Positions 7,619 to 14,919 of a DNA stretch of 42,480 nt are shown here, one piece after another. The notes below the pieces were generated by a model. It made no database searches. It was not told the DNA's origin and saw nothing but the letters and a program-made list of their open reading frames with translations. The stretch lies in assembly GCF_009711975.1 (NCBI RefSeq), contig NZ_VIKW01000035.1, positions 1 to 42,480 on the forward strand. Reading direction: 5' to 3'. How positions within the stretch are numbered: position 1 is the stretch's first letter; every line of letters starts with the position of its first letter. This stretch comes from Anabaena sp. UHCC 0204. Lineage in GTDB: Bacteria > Cyanobacteriota > Cyanobacteriia > Cyanobacteriales > Nostocaceae. The position numbers were made by a program, and so were the translations under genes.

Positions 7619-8107
7619 TTAACTAGCTGCTTTCCAACCATTCATACTGGGAGGAAAACCTCGCACATTATCATAACCCAACAAGTGTAAAGACATAACC
7701 GCCATTGCAGAACGATAACCAGAAGAACAATAAACTACTACAGGCTGTTCTTTCGGAATCTGGTCGAGGTTTTGAACCAATGTCCGTAGAGGAATATTGA
7801 TAGCATCACCAATATGACCGGAAGCATACTCAGAAGGCTCTCTGACATCCACCAGAAAAATATTATCTTGTTTTAACAACTGTTTCAACTCTTCCACTTT
7901 CCCTACAGTGTAATAGTTTCCAGGTATGGATTTAAGATAATTATCCACTGTTGTTTGCAGGTCAGTATTAGTAGATGCTACTAAGATATTCTGCTGTGGT
8001 GATAAGGGGGATGCTATAGCTGATGAGTTATAGCTAACACCAAAAAAGGCATAAATAAATATGCACAAACTCGATAGAATTACAGTTAAACAAAGTCGAA
8101 TTTTCAT
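7619..8107 (-). CDS. Exported single-domain rhodanese
   Basis: The 162-residue protein starts with a positively charged, hydrophobic segment (about residues 3-32, ending near SSAIAS) that looks like a signal peptide or anchor, so export to the periplasm or lumen is likely. The rhodanese fold follows at about 65-160. It has the FLVDVREPSEYASGHI motif and the active-site loop CSSGYRS with the persulfide-forming Cys127. Rhodaneses move sulfane sulfur between donors and thiols or cyanide. It is the last gene of a leftward sulfur-related group and is separated from the dsrE-like gene by about 196 bp holding a hairpin repeat, so it may be transcribed separately. Confidence 0.85.
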   Translation of the reverse strand: MKIRLCLTVILSSLCIFIYAFFGVSYNSSAIASPLSPQQNILVASTNTDLQTTVDNYLKSIPGNYYTVGKVEELKQLLKQDNIFLVDVREPSEYASGHIGDAINIPLRTLVQNLDQIPKEQPVVVYCSSGYRSAMAVMSLHLLGYDNVRGFPPSMNGWKAAS

Positions 8108-8216
8108 GAGTTATTATTTCTTGAAAGTAATCTACAAAAATACTGAGCGAATAGTTAAAATGAATTGACGCACTTATATCAACAGACAAGGCAGTTAGGA
8201 CAATTCAAAGGCTGTC

Positions 8217-8236
8217 ATTCCCGCGACGGCGGGAAT
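8217..8236. repeat. ATTCCC-N8-GGGAAT short palindrome
   Basis: ATTCCCGC (8217-8224) and GCGGGAAT (8229-8236) form a perfect 8-bp stem with a GACG loop. The pattern equals the dRS3-type consensus known from Neisseria and occurs in other genomes as a small dispersed repeat. It sits between the exported rhodanese and the dsrE-like gene. Confidence 0.7.
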
Positions 8237-8303
8237 CCATGTCCTAAGCGTTGTCACTGTTGCTGTATATCATTAATTACAAATTAGCAATTATTCGTTT
8301 GTG

Positions 8304-8672
8304 TTAATAGTTCAAAGACAAAATGCGTCCTTGAGTAAAATTAAAGAAAGCTTCTTTTTGAGCTAACTTTGCCCCTTCAATCAAATCTTCTGGTTGATGA
8401 TTAGCTGCTTTTAAACACATCGGACAGACGTAGATTGAAATCCCTTTTTTAATCAGCTTGTTTAACAAAACTTGTGCTGATTCAAACTCCCTAAATTCAA
8501 TTATCTTCTCATTTTTAAGAGCAACTTCTACACCTTGAATATCAAAAAACACTAGCACATCTTTATCTTCAGACATTTTTTCAGCTAGGGTCAATGCCAT
8601 CAATACCCGGTGAGGGTCTTCTGTTCCTCGACTAATGTGAATAAAGACTCCATCCTTAACTGTAGTTTCCAT
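8304..8672 (-). CDS. DsrE/DsrF-like sulfur-relay family protein
   Basis: The 122-residue cytosolic protein has the DsrE fold pattern: an N-terminal beta strand with HISRGTEDPHRVLMAL, a central strand VLVFFDIQGV, and YVCPMCLKAA with Cys83 and Cys86 at the position where DsrE/TusD-type proteins carry their sulfur-accepting cysteine. Such proteins bind persulfide sulfur or act as peroxiredoxin-like partners. It lies 33 bp after the methyltransferase gene in the leftward Rieske-rhodanese-methyltransferase operon, consistent with handling sulfane sulfur made by the neighbouring SQR. The family is well supported; the exact role is inferred. Confidence 0.8.
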   Translation of the reverse strand: METTVKDGVFIHISRGTEDPHRVLMALTLAEKMSEDKDVLVFFDIQGVEVALKNEKIIEFREFESAQVLLNKLIKKGISIYVCPMCLKAANHQPEDLIEGAKLAQKEAFFNFTQGRILSLNY

Positions 8673-8705
8673 TTTTTCTCTCCTGCAAGTCTGAACTTTT
8701 CAGTA

Positions 8706-9404
8706 TTAATTAAACTGTTTGATTGCAACAGTTGTCTTCCTAGCTGCTCCGGCAATATGAGGACTGACAATAGGAAAAGAAAGATCAAACTGTTGATAAT
8801 CAATGCTCTCAAAACCGACATTTTCTAAAATTTCCCCAGTTTCACGGTTGGGGTGACAATTATCAAAGATTGTCTTCCAGACTGGTTCAATTCCATCTTG
8901 AATTCTGCGTGTCCAAGTACCGCATTCAGCCGCAACGTGTTCAATAAATAGGAAACGACCATCAGGTTTGAGTACCCGCACGATTTCTTGTAAAGTAGTG
9001 GCAACGTCCGTTACAGAACAAAGGACATGGGTACTGACAACAACATCAATACTGTTATCTTCAACATCTAACTTTTCCGCTGAACCTAACCGTAATTCAA
9101 TATTATCCAAACCGAGGCGTTCAGCTTCTTCCCGGAGATAAGAATGCATGAAAGGATTTGGTTCAATACCAATCCAGTGGATATCAGGGGGATAATAACA
9201 GAGATTTGCCCCTGCCCCCGGTCCAATTTCTAAAACTCGTCCGTCTAAATCTGTAAAGAAAGCCTGTTTGAGTTGTGCCATAGTTTCATAGCTGCTGTCA
9301 CCATGCAACTTGATGGCACTGTTATCTGTGGTATTTGCTTTAGCCATTCCCCAAGCAAACAGACTTTTTAACCAGTCTGGAGTTGTTTGTCTGTCTGATG
9401 TCAT
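8706..9404 (-). CDS. METTL7/TMT1-like class I SAM methyltransferase, candidate thiol/H2S methyltransferase
   Basis: The 232-residue protein has a class I methyltransferase core: VLEIGPGAGANLCYYP (motif I, about 57-72), GIEPNP for the acidic ribose-binding strand, STHVLCSV, and RVLKPDGRFLFIEHVAAE. The combination of EIGxGxGAN-YPP, EPNP, VLCSV, EHVAAE-TW, EPxWxxxFDxC and a terminal PHIxGxA closely matches animal METTL7A/B (TMT1A/B), which methylate H2S and small thiols. That comparison is from memory. In a leftward operon, 28 bp after a rhodanese and 33 bp before a DsrE-like gene, a role in methylating sulfide or thiols is plausible. A quinone or lipid methyltransferase remains the main alternative. 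Confidence 0.8.
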   Translation of the reverse strand: MTSDRQTTPDWLKSLFAWGMAKANTTDNSAIKLHGDSSYETMAQLKQAFFTDLDGRVLEIGPGAGANLCYYPPDIHWIGIEPNPFMHSYLREEAERLGLDNIELRLGSAEKLDVEDNSIDVVVSTHVLCSVTDVATTLQEIVRVLKPDGRFLFIEHVAAECGTWTRRIQDGIEPVWKTIFDNCHPNRETGEILENVGFESIDYQQFDLSFPIVSPHIAGAARKTTVAIKQFN

Positions 9405-9432
9405 GAAAAAACTCCTGGGAAAATCTAAATTA

Positions 9433-9810
9433 TTATTTACCCTCGCAAGTTGCTAGTCCTAATTGTCGCCACTCCATCATTCCACCACTAATATTGAAGA
9501 CTTTGGTAAAACCTGCTTTGACCAAATATTCAGCAGCAATGGGGCTGCGGTGGGAAGTTAAACAAATCACAACAACAGCTTCATCCTTGGGTAAATCCCG
9601 AAACCATTGAGGATAAAGCCAGCGACGAAAACCTGGTATCATCCCTATCAGCAGCCGTGGCAAACTCAGGTTTATTGCCCCTGGGGCGTGAAACATCCCA
9701 TACTCAAAGTTGCTACGGACATCTATCAGTAAGGGAGGTTCAGGTAAGTTAGCAAATTCAGAAGGAGAAATATTAATCACCAATGGTTGAATAGAAGATG
9801 TAGATGCCAT
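9433..9810 (-). CDS. Cytosolic single-domain rhodanese
   Basis: The 125-residue protein lacks a signal peptide and is nearly all rhodanese domain: LLIDVRSNFEYGMFHAPGAI near residues 27-46 and the active-site loop CLTSHRSP with Cys83. GLIGMIPGF-like hydrophobic sequence in the middle (about 54-70) may form a lid. It would transfer sulfane sulfur, for example from SQR-generated persulfide. It is 31 bp downstream of the Rieske gene and 28 bp upstream of the methyltransferase gene, so a single transcript is likely. With the exported rhodanese at 7619-8107 the locus encodes sulfurtransferases for two compartments. Confidence 0.88.
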   Translation of the reverse strand: MASTSSIQPLVINISPSEFANLPEPPLLIDVRSNFEYGMFHAPGAINLSLPRLLIGMIPGFRRWLYPQWFRDLPKDEAVVVICLTSHRSPIAAEYLVKAGFTKVFNISGGMMEWRQLGLATCEGK

Positions 9811-9841
9811 ATTAATTGCAACCTGTTATAAAATTAAGTTA

Positions 9842-10375
9842 CTAAACCCACCAAGGTTTTTCACCAGTCCGGGGGTCTATTTCTGTCCAGGGAGAAATGC
9901 GGATATACTCACCTTCCAAGTTAACGCCAACAAGCTTGAGAGGAAGAGGTGCAGGACCACGTATTACTTTGCCATCAGGATCATAGCGAGAACCATGACA
10001 GGGACATTGAAATTGGCTGTCATTGGGATTCCAAGGAAATGTACAACCCAAATGGGTACAGATATCAACAATTCCCCAAGGGTGCAGAGTCCCATCTGAT
10101 TGGATTGTGAGGTAAGTAGGTTCTGCTGCTAAACCTGCAACTAAGGCACGAGTGCCAACGGGTTCAGCTAAAATCTGGCTAGAAGGAATGAGATTTCCAT
10201 GAATATCCTTGGCGAGGACAGAACCATCTTCACCCACTTCTGTGGGGGCAACAAAGAATTTAGCCGCAGGATAAAGTAAGCTGCTGGCTGTAGTGGCGAC
10301 AACTGCACCTGTAAGAAAGTTGAGTAATTGTCGTCTCGACATTGAGGGGCTTTCTAAAGGAAGACTCTCTGACAT
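9842..10375 (-). CDS. petC: Rieske iron-sulfur protein, divergent PetC paralogue
   Basis: The 177-residue protein has a Tat-like SRRQLLNF motif, one membrane helix (about 21-42) and a Rieske domain. The [2Fe-2S] ligands Cys106-His108 (CTHLGC) and Cys124-His127 (CPCH) and the disulfide pair Cys111/Cys126 are present, and the C-terminus GEKPWWV is typical of cytochrome b6f PetC. It would carry electrons from plastoquinol to the lumenal acceptors. Compared with remembered main PetC1 sequences, the glycine-rich hinge after the helix is replaced by TEVGEDGSVL. Position as first gene of a sulfur operon divergent from sqr argues for a specialised isoform used under sulfide or low oxygen. Confidence 0.9.
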   Translation of the reverse strand: MSESLPLESPSMSRRQLLNFLTGAVVATTASSLLYPAAKFFVAPTEVGEDGSVLAKDIHGNLIPSSQILAEPVGTRALVAGLAAEPTYLTIQSDGTLHPWGIVDICTHLGCTFPWNPNDSQFQCPCHGSRYDPDGKVIRGPAPLPLKLVGVNLEGEYIRISPWTEIDPRTGEKPWWV

Positions 10376-10696
10376 AAATTTACACTAAGTATTGAGTGCG
10401 TTGGTTAATATTTTGATTGAGTAACCATTGTTTACATTTTCATTATACTACTATTTCGTTATATAATCATTAATCCAAATAAATATTTTTTCTTTAACCG
10501 TGATGGGTATAAATACACTCACGCTATCTGGGGCGATCGCTTTTGGAAATTCCTTGAACTAAAAACATGATTGTCTTACTATCTAGTTAAGTAGTGTCAT
10601 GGCGAATTTCTAAAAAAGCGTAGGAATAGAAAGCAGTTTTGTCTTGGCACTTTTCCATCGTTTCTGCGCCAATTTGTAGCAATCGGAGCATTTAAC
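10376..10696. promoter_or_regulatory. Divergent control region between the Rieske operon and sqr
   Basis: For sqr (+), TTGAAC (10554-10559) and TACTAT (10577-10582) with a 17-bp spacer form a good sigma70-type promoter, and GGAG (10685-10688) is an RBS 8 bp before the ATG. Overlapping the -10, ACTATCTAGTTAAGTAG (10578-10594) matches 14 of 17 positions of a sequence in the downstream psbA promoter. For the Rieske operon (-), TATAAT is read at 10447-10442; a weaker 12/17 match to the same motif lies at 10451-10467 on the minus strand. A HIP1 site is at about 10531. Confidence 0.55.
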
Positions 10697-11998
10697 ATGG
10701 TTCACGTTGTCATACTGGGTGCAGGAATAGGAGGTTTACCAACAGCTTACGAACTGCGGCATTTGTTGCCAAAATGTCATCGCATCACACTTATTTCTGA
10801 CCACCCAAAATTTACTTTTATTCCGTCCCTACCCTGGGTAGCCTTCGATTTAACCCCACTCGAAAATATTCAATTAGATATAGAAAATTTGCTTTTAGGA
10901 CGAGGTATTGATTGGATAGAAGGAAAAGTTACAGCCCTTGATCCTCAAGCACAAACCCTAAATATTGCCGGAAAAACCATTAATTACGACTACGCGGTAA
11001 TTGCGACGGGGGCATCCTTAGCACTGGATGCCGTACCGGGATTAGGTCCAGAGCAAGGTTATACCCAATCTGTATGTAATCCCCATCACGCTTTATTGGC
11101 GCGGGAAGCTTGGCAAAAGTTTCTGGATCATCCAGGACCCCTAGTAGTGGGAGCAGTTCCCGGAGTCAGTTGTTTTGGTCCGCTGTATGAGTTTGCTTTA
11201 CTGGCAGATTATGTTTTGCGACAACGGGGTTTGCGTGATCAAGTACCCATTACTCTAGTTACACCAGAACCTTATGCAGGTCATTTAGGGATTGGCGGAA
11301 TGGCAAACTCTTCCGAGTTGGTGACTCAACTGCTACAGCAACGAGATATTGAATTAATTGAAAATACGGAAATTACTGGGATTAATCCGGAAAAGATGAC
11401 CTTAGCAGATGGTCGTATTTTACCTTTTCAATACTCAATGGTATTGCCACCTTTTCAAGGAGCAGAATTTTTGCAGTTAGCAAAGGGATTAACTGATGAG
11501 AAGGGGTTTGTGCCAATTTTACCGACATATCAACATCCAGACTTTCCCTCAATTTATAGTTTGGGTGTGGTGGTACAGTTAACTCTTCCAGAACAGACAT
11601 CTATCCCAATTGGTGTACCGAAAACTGGACAAATGACAGAAGCTATGGGAATGGCTGTTGCTCATAATATTGCTAGGGAATTGGGAGTGATCAAAACAGC
11701 AGCAGTAACACCAACCCTAGAAGCAATTTGTATGGCAGATTTTGGCGATACGGGGATTATTTTTATTGCTGCTCCGGTATTACCTGATTGCGTAACGGGA
11801 AAACGCCGGAGTTCTGTCGCTAAAAGAGGTTTTTGGGTGAGTTGGATGAAGGTAGCTTTTGAGAAATTTTTCTTAATGAAGATGCGGTTGGGGATGTCTG
11901 TTCCCTGGTTTGAGCGTTGGGGTTTACGGATTTTGGGTTTATCTTTAGTCGCACCAATTCCAGATTCACAATTACCGACAACTGCCAGTAAGAATTAG
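10697..11998 (+). CDS. sqr: Sulfide:quinone oxidoreductase
   Basis: SQR is a membrane-bound flavoprotein that oxidises H2S to sulfane sulfur and reduces plastoquinone. The 433-residue protein has an N-terminal FAD dinucleotide fold (VVILGAGIGGLPTAYEL), a second ATGAS flavin motif near 103-107, and all three cysteines of the catalytic type: Cys127 (SVCNPHHA), Cys159 (GVSCFGPLYEF) and Cys345 (EAICMADFGDTG). The C-terminal stretch about 378-415 is amphipathic, with FEKFFLMKMRLGMS as in membrane-attached SQRs. The SQR subtype cannot be assigned without alignment. It has its own promoter and RBS, diverges from the Rieske operon and is followed by a D1' psbA gene, implying joint function under sulfide. 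Confidence 0.9.
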   Translation: MVHVVILGAGIGGLPTAYELRHLLPKCHRITLISDHPKFTFIPSLPWVAFDLTPLENIQLDIENLLLGRGIDWIEGKVTALDPQAQTLNIAGKTINYDYAVIATGASLALDAVPGLGPEQGYTQSVCNPHHALLAREAWQKFLDHPGPLVVGAVPGVSCFGPLYEFALLADYVLRQRGLRDQVPITLVTPEPYAGHLGIGGMANSSELVTQLLQQRDIELIENTEITGINPEKMTLADGRILPFQYSMVLPPFQGAEFLQLAKGLTDEKGFVPILPTYQHPDFPSIYSLGVVVQLTLPEQTSIPIGVPKTGQMTEAMGMAVAHNIARELGVIKTAAVTPTLEAICMADFGDTGIIFIAAPVLPDCVTGKRRSSVAKRGFWVSWMKVAFEKFFLMKMRLGMSVPWFERWGLRILGLSLVAPIPDSQLPTTASKN

Positions 11999-12080
11999 CA
12001 CAAAAATTAACTTATATACCCAAGAACTCACTTTAGCATTTTGGCGATCGCTAAAATTAAATCCTTTTTTTTCAGGAGTC

Positions 12081-12149
12081 ATGAAACTGGAAATCCAGTC
12101 ACACCAAGGTTGTCCTCACTGTCAGAAAAATAATTACAAAATAATATGA
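12081..12149 (+). CDS. Possible 22-residue CxxC micropeptide
   Basis: A short ORF between sqr and psbA starts with ATG and is preceded by AGGAG two bases upstream (closer than ideal). It encodes 22 residues including HQGCPHCQK, a thioredoxin/glutaredoxin-like CPHC motif. It ends 8 bp before the psbA -35 element. It could be a real redox or metal-binding peptide, the remnant of a glutaredoxin-like gene, or chance. Confidence 0.25.
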   Translation: MKLEIQSHQGCPHCQKNNYKII

Positions 12150-12157
12150 GAATTTAC

Positions 12158-12189
12158 TTGACAGAATATATAACTATATAGTTAAATAA
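12158..12189 (+). promoter_or_regulatory. psbA (D1') promoter with embedded palindrome
   Basis: TTGACA (12158-12163) is a perfect -35. TTAAAT (12182-12187, 18-bp spacer) is the best -10 match. Between and overlapping them lies the perfect 12-bp palindrome AACTATATAGTT (12172-12183), a natural operator position. The ATG follows about 55 bp later with only weak Shine-Dalgarno similarity. Confidence 0.55.
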
Positions 12190-12241
12190 AGGAATAAGGT
12201 TAACTTGCCTTGAACAACGATTAACCTCGGAATTAAAAATT

Positions 12242-13324
12242 ATGGCTATTTCTCTGCAACAACGCCAAAGTAACAATCTTTGGGATAACTTCTGCAATTG
12301 GATTACCAGCACTAACAACCGGATGTACATTGGTTGGTTTGGTGTACTAATGATTCCTACACTTTTAACAGCAATTATTTGTTTCACCATCGCTTTTATT
12401 GCCGCACCACCTGTAGATATAGATGGTATTCGTGAACCTGTGAGTGGTTCTTTACTCTATGGCAATAACATCATTTCTGCTGCGGTTGTGCCTAGTTCCA
12501 ATGCTATTGGTTTACACTTTTATCCCATTTGGGAAGCCGCTACTTTAGATGAGTGGCTATATAATGGTGGTCCTTACCAATTAATTATTTTCCACTTCCT
12601 GATAGGTATTTTCTGCTATATGGGTCGTCAGTGGGAATTATCCTACCGCTTAGGGATGCGTCCTTGGATTGCGATCGCCTACAGCGCACCTGTTTCTGCT
12701 GCCACTGCGGTACTATTAGTCTACTCTGTCGGTCAAGGTTCTTTCTCCGACGGGCTACCTTTAGGGATTAGTGGTACTTTCAACTTCATGATTGTACTGC
12801 AAGCAGAACACAACGTTCTCATGCACCCATTCCATATGTTGGGAGTAGCTGGTGTCTTTGGTGGTGCTTTATTTTCTGCTATGCACGGTTCTCTCGTCAC
12901 TTCGTCTTTAATTCGAGAAACCACTGAAATTGAATCCCAAAACCACGGTTACAAATTCGGTCAAGAAGAAGAAACCTATAATATTGTTGCGGCTCACGGT
13001 TATTTCGGTAGATTAATCTTTCAATACGCATCTTTTAACAATAGTCGCGCTTTACACTTCCTTTTAGGTGCTTGGCCAGTAATTGGTATCTGGTTTGCAG
13101 CTTTGGGTGTATCCTCTTTTGCTTTTAACCTCAACGGTTTGAATTTTAATAATTCTGTTCTTGATGCTCAAGGTCATGTAATTAATACTTGGGCTGATGT
13201 AATAAATCGCGCTAACTTGGGAATTGAAACAATGCACGAACGCAACGTTCACAACTTCCCCTTAGATTTAGCTTCTGGGGATATTCAACCCATAGCTTTA
13301 GCTGCTCCTGCTATTAACGGTTAA
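12242..13324 (+). CDS. psbA: Photosystem II D1 protein, low-oxygen D1' variant
   Basis: The 360-residue protein is a complete D1. Mn4CaO5 ligands Asp170, Glu189, His332, Glu333, His337, Asp342 and Ala344, TyrZ Tyr161 with His190, P680 ligand His198, iron ligands His215 and His272, and QB residue Ser264 are all present. A 16-residue tail follows Ala344 for CtpA processing. It carries Ala80, Leu158 and Ala286 in place of Gly, Phe and Thr, the signature of D1' made under microaerobic conditions. Ser162 beside TyrZ and Ala144 also differ from standard D1; residue 130 is Gln. It should be oxygen-evolving but tuned. Placement after sqr links it to sulfide or anoxia. Confidence 0.96.
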
Positions 13325-13595: not shown

Positions 13596-14157
13596 CTTCT
13601 CCTAGCCCTGACAAAAAGACTTTTCCACAAACCCTAATTATTGCAATATATTAATGAATTTCAAGTTTAGTAAATATACAACACAGATGAAAAAACTCAT
13701 GCTAGATTAAGGGCATGGTACAAAAAGGTTAAAAGTTCAACCTTAAATCAAAACTTTCTCATTAGAGTTTGTACCTCCGGCTCTAGTGTATTGGCAATCA
13801 ATGTTAGGTTTTTGCTTCCTGTTAAAGTGTTTTCGCCTGAATCTCACCAAGTTGTTATTGGAGGTGTTGAAATTAACAGCCAGAAGTGCCTGCCGTTTGG
13901 AAATTGGGAAGCGCAATTTAGATCGGATTTATATTGATTGCCTGTCAAGTTCACCTTAGTTTGGATTTTCTAGTTTTTGCTGAATTACAATCTAATCAAG
14001 AAACCGCTGTAAGCTGCTGATGTATCCTTCGTAGCTTGTGGCGGTTTCTGCTATGGATACGAAAACCCAAAAAATATGTTTTTTCATGAATCAAAAACAT
14101 ATATTCTCCGTCAATAGATATATCAGTTATCTACCTGTCTCCAGCGGGGATTATATT
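13596..14157. other. Intergenic region upstream of the COP23-domain gene
   Basis: No convincing gene. An open frame enters the COP23 gene from 14038 but its added 40 residues are hydrophilic and precede the signal peptide, so they are taken as untranslated. The region between 13630 and 13990 is AT-rich with no recognised element; the hairpin at 13999-14049 is listed separately. Confidence 0.4.
13999..14049 (+). promoter_or_regulatory. Long interrupted hairpin in the likely 5' leader of the COP23 gene
   Basis: AGAAACCGC (13999-14007) pairs with GCGGTTTCT (14041-14049), and inside it AAGCT (14011-14015) with AGCTT (14033-14037). No T-run follows, so a simple terminator is unlikely. It ends about 108 bp before the chosen ATG and could be a leader structure, a small RNA part or a protein-binding site. 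Confidence 0.45.
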
Positions 14158-14919
14158 ATGTCATTACAATCGCTTCGGTTTTTATTGTTGAGTAGTCTTG
14201 GTTGTTCTTTATTTTTTGGTAATGCTGTAGCTGTTGCTCAAGTTGTTGTTCCTACAGTCCCATCTGGTTCATCAACTCCAGTTCCAACTGGTTCATCAAC
14301 CAATATACCAACTTCTACTCCAGTAGACAGTAGTACAAGATTTAGTTGTCAATTCTACAATGGGCTACATACAGTCATGTATCAGCCCCAAAGTCAACCA
14401 GGACAGTATTTTGCTTGGGCTGCACCTCAAAATTTAGGAGGGGGTTGGGATGCTCAAAAACGTTGTCAAGCGATCGCCAGCCGCTTAGAATTATATCGCC
14501 CCGATGGTTTACAAGAACTACAAATAGCTGTAGAAAACAACGAAAATATTATTTGTGTCACTACTGAAGCCCAACCCAGTTGTCGAATTGTCTTAACAGT
14601 ACCTCGCGGCAAAGATCCCTATGCTATTCGTAATAGTGTATTTCAAAACCTAGCTACCGCTGATAGTGGACAACAAACTATTGCCGTTAATACTTACGCT
14701 AATCGTAACAGAAGTAATGGAGATAGCTTATACAATTTAGGAAGAACGCTTCTAGGTGGTAATAATCAAGTTAATTCTTCTAAAAACGGTATTAATTTGA
14801 AACCATATCTTGATCCCAGAGATGGTGGAACTGGCAGCAATTTGACAAATGGAGTAGGAATTGGACGCAATACCCAACCCAAATCTCCTGTTCGTCTAAA
14901 TCCTGGTAGATTTCGTTGA
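14158..14919 (+). CDS. COP23-domain secreted protein
   Basis: With the ATG at 14158 the 253-residue protein begins with a classic signal peptide (MSLQSLRFLLLSSLG, cleavage likely near AVAVAQ). A Pro/Ser/Thr linker (about 29-58) follows, then a domain with FSCQFYNGLHTVMY, WDAQKRCQAIASRLE, IICVTT and PSCRIVLTVP. The four cysteines and this order match the cyanobacterial COP23 family, named after a circadian-oscillating membrane protein of unknown function. The C-terminal ~70 residues are Asn/Gly-rich and low in complexity. The family fit is good; no biochemical role can be given. It stands alone with a long structured leader. Confidence 0.75.
   Translation: MSLQSLRFLLLSSLGCSLFFGNAVAVAQVVVPTVPSGSSTPVPTGSSTNIPTSTPVDSSTRFSCQFYNGLHTVMYQPQSQPGQYFAWAAPQNLGGGWDAQKRCQAIASRLELYRPDGLQELQIAVENNENIICVTTEAQPSCRIVLTVPRGKDPYAIRNSVFQNLATADSGQQTIAVNTYANRNRSNGDSLYNLGRTLLGGNNQVNSSKNGINLKPYLDPRDGGTGSNLTNGVGIGRNTQPKSPVRLNPGRFR

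Follow-up and report, generated by a model that had tools for sequence, protein, structure and literature searches.

The window, a 42,480-base stretch of the genome of Anabaena sp. UHCC 0204, carries a cluster of seven genes (7619 to 13324) in which a sulfide:quinone oxidoreductase (SQR) stands between genes for alternative subunits of cytochrome b6f and photosystem II (PSII), accompanied by genes for sulfur-handling proteins. The original prediction, made from the letters alone, had assigned seven gene families to these places; all seven open reading frames are intact, and the assignments hold in Pfam and NCBIfam matches. The SQR gene (10697..11998, plus strand; type I-like by alignment with solved SQRs and by its cysteines) is divergent from petC2 (9842..10375, minus strand; scoring 280 bits with NF045928, cut-off 250), which encodes a PetC2-type Rieske subunit of cytochrome b6f, and 321 bases lie between the two. 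Beyond petC2 on the minus strand follow the genes for a single-domain rhodanese, Rhd2 (9433..9810; Pfam Rhodanese, 2.5e-16), an S-adenosylmethionine (SAM) methyltransferase similar to TMT1/METTL7 (8706..9404; Methyltransf_11, 1.2e-20), and a DsrE/DsrF-like protein, a probable sulfur carrier (8304..8672; Pfam DsrE, 1.5e-9). From petC2 to DsrE the genes are spaced by 28 to 33 bases and therefore look like one transcription unit, whose last member is followed after 196 bases by a second rhodanese gene, RhdS (7619..8107, minus strand; Pfam Rhodanese, 3.1e-21), with an N-terminal signal-like segment judged by eye. On the other side, 243 bases downstream of SQR and on the same strand, lies a psbA gene for D1' (12242..13324; TIGR01151, 748 bits against a cut-off of 596), assigned to the microaerobic type with intact manganese ligands from its residues. 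Two operator-like sites, to which no strand is assigned, occupy the intergenic regions: ACTATCTAGT at 10578..10587 (upstream of sqr by 119 bases and of petC2 by 212) and ATAACTATATAGTTAAATA at 12170..12188, the core of which, ACTATATAGT at 12173-12182, starts 69 bases before psbA.

Almost the whole length of the SQR aligns with the solved SQR 3hyv (E 1e-96). Residues C127, C159, and C345 match cysteines of 3hyv and are invariant across 8 aligned cyanobacterial SQRs, so that the three cysteines originally claimed, the redox cysteines of a type I SQR, are all present. The nearest solved structures are 3hyv and 3sz0, both of which we take to be type I SQRs.

The D1 protein has A80, L158, and A286, which we assume to be the marker set of D1' (group 3), together with the full set of manganese ligands (D170, E189, H332, E333, D342, and A344), in line with the microaerobic type proposed earlier. 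A286 alone is not diagnostic, because PsbA1 of T. vulcanus also has it; PsbA2 of T. elongatus is reported to carry L158 and A286 (PMC12107152). Besides this gene, the PF00124 search of the assembly, which is rated 99.99% complete, returned one further psbA, encoding a standard D1 (G80, F158, T286), and no psbD, perhaps owing to a collapsed repeat.

A second petC (PetC1, adjoining petA) is located on another contig of the same genome, so the window's PetC is a paralogue, as had been supposed. It has the TM_PetC anchor and the [2Fe-2S] ligand motifs CTHLGC and CPCHGS, and falls into the PetC2 class. PetC copies in 61 genomes form two groups, with 61-100% and 43-50% identity to the window's copy, and a tree of 85 different rows splits 67 from 18 with 100/100 support and places the window on the PetC2 side; the rows were labelled by identity beforehand, which makes the tree a confirmation of a split already drawn. 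Near the iron-sulfur cluster the PetC2 consensus reads CTHLGCTF (CTHLGCVV in PetC1) and CHGSRY (CHGSQY in PetC1). A copy 66-68% identical to the window's PetC2 lies near a D1 gene in genomes that we assume to be Synechocystis-like, Slr1185 itself not being part of the comparison. PetC2 is made under low oxygen or high light (PMC9958174).

Linkage across the order and losses within the genus

Of the order's 388 genomes, 56 gave an SQR match at E <=1e-60. Neighbourhoods of about 10 kb around SQR were read in two overlapping sets, one of 56 loci from 55 other genomes and one of 80 loci, some of which share a genome; many loci are clipped by contig ends. PetC2 lies near SQR in 34/80 and 20/56 loci, and PetC1 in none of either set (0/80 and 0/56). 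PetC1 is a fair control because it is nearly universal, only one of the 61 genomes searched (G272) being without any PetC match. The linkage in relatives that the original prediction called for is thus found when the order is taken as a whole. It recurs in many cyanobacterial families, and PetC2 is present in 41/56 genomes with SQR versus 62/332 without it (odds ratio 11.9, uncorrected for kinship).

D1 genes of an alternative type lie near SQR in 11 loci of the 56-locus set and 17 of the 80-locus set, compared with 1 and 2 for standard D1 and 3 and 1 for fragments; alternative here means not seen as standard, the residue-80 pattern being mostly unmatched. The aligned residues are nonetheless A/L/A in every different sequence of this class. 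Linked D1s elsewhere are of two kinds, either the same as the window's or with A80/L158/A286 and without most of the ligands, and the ligand-poor kind fits the 'rogue' group 2 by its residues. A low-oxygen D1 in every D1 neighbour is ruled out, since the D1 proteins at L147 and L187 are of standard type. At L315 the psbA near PetC2 appears as two open frames, starting at 11593 and 14275, about 2.7 kb apart.

Other neighbours of SQR in the 56- and 80-locus sets are the methyltransferase (7 and 9), DsrE (3 and 3), and ArsR (29 and 53); the Rhd2 count takes in distant rhodaneses and was not used. Neighbour labels were checked against Pfam, where DUF3365 corresponds to Tll0287-like, DUF2892 to YgaP-like_TM, F7 to DUF3122, Acr3 to an SBF-family transporter, TrxR to Pyr_redox_2, and ETHE1 (persulfide-dioxygenase-like) to a metallo-beta-lactamase fold protein. 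Alternative D1, PetC2, rhodanese, and methyltransferase occur together with SQR in 3/56 and 4/80 loci. The full set, which adds DsrE and the signal-bearing rhodanese, is found in 1/56 (L092) and 2/80 (L154 and L202). L092 and L202 are the same contig, that of Pleurocapsales LEGE 10410, with a D1 of the ligand-poor kind, and L154 belongs to Leptolyngbya sp. Heron Island J, with both D1 kinds and a signal-bearing rhodanese that is a weak 30% match. Full sets are therefore rare and sub-blocks common.

One reading of such variation is that low-oxygen and sulfur genes gathered as independent neighbours, each under its own control. The wide differences in gene order and content, with full sets so scarce, would agree with this, whereas among the 136 overlapping locus readings PetC2 appears 54 times and PetC1 never, which argues against it.

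Two further kinds of neighbourhood were observed. Heterodisulfide-reductase-like gene sets (proteins with CCG and 4Fe-4S domains, some with a flavoprotein) adjoin SQR at L055, L061-L063, L074, L079, L080, L087, L125, L146, L147, L187, and L190, and may represent a further route of sulfur oxidation in cyanobacteria. L313 combines an alternative D1 (A80, L158, A286 by pattern) with PetC2, rhodaneses, a persulfide-dioxygenase-like gene, TauE, and ArsR; the 20 kb read there contain no SQR.

Within the genus (16 genomes), PetC2 is found in four genomes and SQR in that of the window only. The three PetC2-bearing relatives share the site, where GatD, a rhodanese, DsrE (2/3), and PetC2 are followed by the genes that come after psbA in the window; the rhodanese is the signal-bearing one, kept in 3/3. 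Between DsrE and PetC, L264 retains identical scars, 45 bases of the methyltransferase and 22 bases of Rhd2, and the psbA of L265 lacks codons 49-297. These scars indicate that the methyltransferase, rhodanese, or psbA was lost in those relatives, and rule out that the window's lineage acquired the methyltransferase, Rhd2, and D1' only recently. An assembly error at L264 is unlikely because its genome has two contigs; L265 and L293 come from draft assemblies. L293 has no scar of the methyltransferase, Rhd2, or psbA at the site, and an SQR scar was found in none of the three relatives. Same-genus genomes with and without these genes offer a natural comparison. The genes present, their linkage, the classes of D1 and PetC, the sites, and the losses are shown by the sequences, and the module is real and recurring but patchy; the proposed linkage of seven families stands for its sub-blocks, and the complete combination is exceptional.

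A palindrome shared among upstream regions

Stretches resembling ACTAT-N-TAGT were first noticed in the two gaps that flank sqr, and several versions were then tested, including a longer pattern, which was taken from the psbA site itself. The form ACTANNTAGT occurs before 31/104 SQR genes (0.62 expected from Markov resamplings), 4/23 D1 genes, and 12/63 PetC2 genes; these counts include the window once per class, and some of the regions are shared, sqr and petC2 often being divergent. In the window and the 80 loci together (81 sequences, 1.50 Mb) there are 70 sites, 26 of which lie outside the tested 300-base upstream regions (0.019 per kb). The density before SQR, DUF302, persulfide-dioxygenase-like, ArsR, PetC, and D1 genes is 0.57 to 1.83 per kb, approximately 30 to 95 times that in the rest of the sequences. 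The window itself has three sites, a number reached in 6/100 shuffles: those at 10578 and 12173 are in the two intergenic regions of the cluster, and the third is at 2070. At L138, from Anabaena sp. 4-3, the locus contains SQR, PetC2, D1', and ArsR, and both sqr and petC2 have the site upstream.

Most upstream regions of all three classes lack an exact ACTANNTAGT, as would be expected of independent neighbours, yet the same palindrome is shared before several first genes of units. Together with the occurrence of PetC2, and never PetC1, in the SQR loci, this makes a gathering without co-regulation improbable. The shared site, a predicted operator, speaks for one programme.

Besides a weak match, the genome encodes two close homologues of ArsR. 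One of the close homologues is divergent from a persulfide-dioxygenase-like gene, and the region between them contains TACTATATAGCTATATAATAG, one base off ACTANNTAGT. This arrangement resembles regulons of BigR/SqrR-type ArsR proteins in that the ArsR gene has as neighbours (by eye) a persulfide-dioxygenase-like gene and a rhodanese gene, and in that one site precedes several sulfur genes, in a minority of loci; the places of its cysteines also match those of BigR/SqrR. The likeness is incomplete: the BigR model is not matched at its cut-off, and the box is ACTANNTAGT rather than ATTC-N8-GAAT, which we take to be the SqrR-like box. The latter was found in 2/104 SQR regions versus 1.06 expected and is not enriched there. 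An ArsR protein of this genome may bind the ACTANNTAGT sites, judging from these neighbourhoods.

Elsewhere in the same genome, at about 1497-1516 of L299 and outside genes, a long inverted repeat surrounds ACTATCTAGT, with arms TATAACTA and TAGTTATA; downstream of it lie genes for a small protein and for what by eye resembles a metal-transport ATPase.

The methyltransferase

For METHYLTRANSFERASE, the product of 8706..9404, all Pfam and NCBIfam matches are generic; the search of the PDB with this sequence listed no TMT1, and its best match scores 58.5 bits. Comparison with human METTL7A, using a provisional reference sequence rather than the database entry, gives 135 bits and 40% identity over 196 aa. 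In a control with the same provisional sequence, members of the family reach up to 149 bits and the other frames tested at most 43, and 47/90 columns conserved in the family are identical in METTL7A. The enzyme thus appears to resemble, at the level of sequence, the human thiol (H2S) methyltransferase METTL7A/TMT1A. The acidic residue that we take to be the counterpart of METTL7B D98 is Glu in the window's enzyme, which weakens the likeness. METTL7B methylates H2S and loses activity in the D98A variant (PMC7921093). Known H2S S-methyltransferases include TMT1A/TMT1B (METTL7A/B), MddH, and MddM1/2 (PMC7921093, PMC12904073); the window's enzyme has a SAM fold like theirs, and its sequence was likened to METTL7A among them.

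Alternatively, the substrate could be a quinone, a lipid, or arsenite instead of a thiol. The SAM fold is generic, and the model of arsenite methyltransferase gives 62.1 bits (cut-off 263) and that of phospholipid methyltransferase 61.8 (cut-off 390), both far too low to pass; SBF-family transporters, which include arsenite pumps, are near 20/80 SQR loci. With the score to METTL7A well above that to the best solved structure, and with the separation seen in the control, we regard a non-thiol substrate as possible but rather doubtful.

The methyltransferase was found in 74/388 genomes at E <=1e-30, a few of these matches being distant, and in 24/29 other loci, taken from the best of 80 matches, a cluster gene lies within 1.5 kb of it. 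A methyltransferase also recurs in the D1-PetC2 block of L310 (7557-8686), from a genome assumed to be Synechocystis-like, but of other types, PEMT-like and TehB-like enzymes replacing the TMT1-like one.

Proposed function of the locus

We consider it moderately probable that the locus is a single module for life with sulfide and low oxygen, with the enzyme activities, regulator, and electron flow predicted from sequence. The SQR would oxidise H2S and deliver the electrons into plastoquinone. Under sulfide and low oxygen, PetC2 would replace PetC1 in cytochrome b6f and D1' would replace D1 in PSII, which, with the manganese ligands of D1' kept, might remain capable of oxygen evolution. The rhodaneses and DsrE would carry sulfane sulfur off SQR, and the TMT1-like methyltransferase would cap residual H2S as methanethiol. 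A regulator of the ArsR family, encoded elsewhere, would bind ACTANNTAGT before sqr and psbA and be released when persulfide accumulates.

Parts of this arrangement are already known, namely the pairs sqr-psbA and sqr-petC2, the association psbA-rhodanese-petC, and induction by low oxygen. Grim and Dick (2016) described sqr near group 2/3 psbA in 15 genomes and arsR near 27 sqr genes (PMC5061849). Those loci, like the window, place SQR close to a low-oxygen psbA; in contrast to those with arsR nearby, the window has no adjacent arsR. The available portion of that article mentions neither petC2, DsrE, nor this kind of methyltransferase, and 'Rieske' and 'rhodanese' have 0 occurrences in it. In Acaryochloris (AM1_0449-0451) and Synechocystis (slr1181-slr1185), psbA1-rhodanese-petC clusters likewise unite a low-oxygen D1, a rhodanese, and a second PetC, and petC AM1_0450 and the rhodanese gene of Acaryochloris are raised in microoxic conditions (PMC5295598). 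As described in the accessible text of that report, these clusters have no sqr, unlike the window, and the Acaryochloris D1 is assumed not to evolve oxygen, whereas the window's D1' keeps the ligands. The type I sqr of Thermostichales is flanked by petC2, as here, with psbA and a methyltransferase not described in the part of that source consulted (PMC11304991). The window is thus a fuller variant that unites known pieces in one locus. The claim that joint clustering reflects one programme gains from the linkage and the shared palindrome; the linkage itself is less new than was supposed, the pairs being in print (PMC5061849, PMC11304991, PMC5295598). None of three findings, the palindrome ACTANNTAGT, the likeness to TMT1, and the gene decay in relatives, was met in the open-licence literature searched, where the search aimed at the palindrome gave no paper; they are new to that extent.

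A different explanation is detoxification only. SQR and the sulfur genes would then shield an oxygenic organism against pulses of sulfide, with D1' and PetC2 responding to low oxygen on their own account, and the linkage would mirror a shared niche instead of a supply of electrons for carbon fixation. The SQR of Synechococcus PCC 7002 detoxifies sulfide (PMC7042703), D1' retains the ligands of water oxidation, and D1-PetC2 blocks exist with no SQR in the up to 20 kb read (L310, L311, L313, and L316), as one also does, with a broken psbA, in L265. Separate responses are harder to reconcile with the same ACTANNTAGT site before sqr, D1, and petC2 genes. Moreover, the SQR appears to resemble enzymes of cyanobacterial anoxygenic photosynthesis (PMC5061849), and anoxygenic photosynthesis is reported for PCC 7002 itself (PMC12466478). 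Detoxification alone accordingly stays a serious possibility, if a somewhat less than even one.

Several observations weigh against a single module, in addition to the many upstream regions without the palindrome and the absence of SQR from 15/16 genomes of the genus. No ACTANNTAGT precedes methyltransferase, DsrE, or rhodanese genes in the 81 sequences, where these are mostly internal to units. An exact site is missing from the 350 bases upstream of SQR, D1, and PetC in the nearest named relative, L124 (Calothrix sp. PCC 7103), and likewise in L126, L127, and L128; this lack lowers our confidence in both the module and a persulfide regulon. The 12-base form AACTANNTAGTT is not enriched genome-wide (10 copies versus 27 for the reversed control), and one of the ten copies is the psbA site and six are inside open reading frames. 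No arsR was seen within the window's cluster; the two ArsR proteins encoded elsewhere, at C9:9177-9536 and C2:123352-123648, score 32 and 39.7 bits with the BigR model (cut-off 155), and the persulfide-dioxygenase-like gene, of the metallo-beta-lactamase fold, reaches 94 bits with the Blh model and 111 with that of hydroxyacylglutathione hydrolase, neither of which attains its cut-off. A promoter scan found 11 candidates versus 15.8 in shuffles, with no excess. The window's D1 has P173 in place of the Met of microaerobic PsbA2, and among solved D1 proteins PsbA2 (7yq2) ranks only sixth (716 bits; best, 731). Loss of sqr in PCC 7002 raised psbA and petC transcripts (PMC7042703), and anoxygenic photosynthesis in Leptolyngbya hensonii needs no induction (PMC5776472).

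In favour of the module, polysulfide raised psbA and petC transcripts in PCC 7002, isoforms not specified in the text available (PMC12466478). A broader proposal, tentative and rather unlikely, would place the low-oxygen D1' and PetC2 of many cyanobacteria in a persulfide-sensing ArsR regulon, with ACTANNTAGT as its operator, that also controls sqr and persulfide-dioxygenase genes; the excess would leave as methanethiol by way of a TMT1-type methyltransferase. If this is true, the electron chain would be rebuilt in answer to sulfide itself, and the venting would be a biological source of methylated sulfur not met in the literature searched. For the alternation of oxygenic and anoxygenic photosynthesis in early sulfidic oceans, it matters whether cyanobacteria rebuild PSII and cytochrome b6f in response to sulfide or to low oxygen alone.

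Two minor features of the window were also recorded. In the gap between DsrE and the signal-bearing rhodanese, positions 8218-8235 form a GC-rich inverted repeat that resembles a dispersed repeat and could leave the last gene uncoupled from the others. Past psbA, the first large open frame (14038-14919) belongs to the COP23 (circadian oscillating protein) family and is conserved at this site in the three same-genus relatives.

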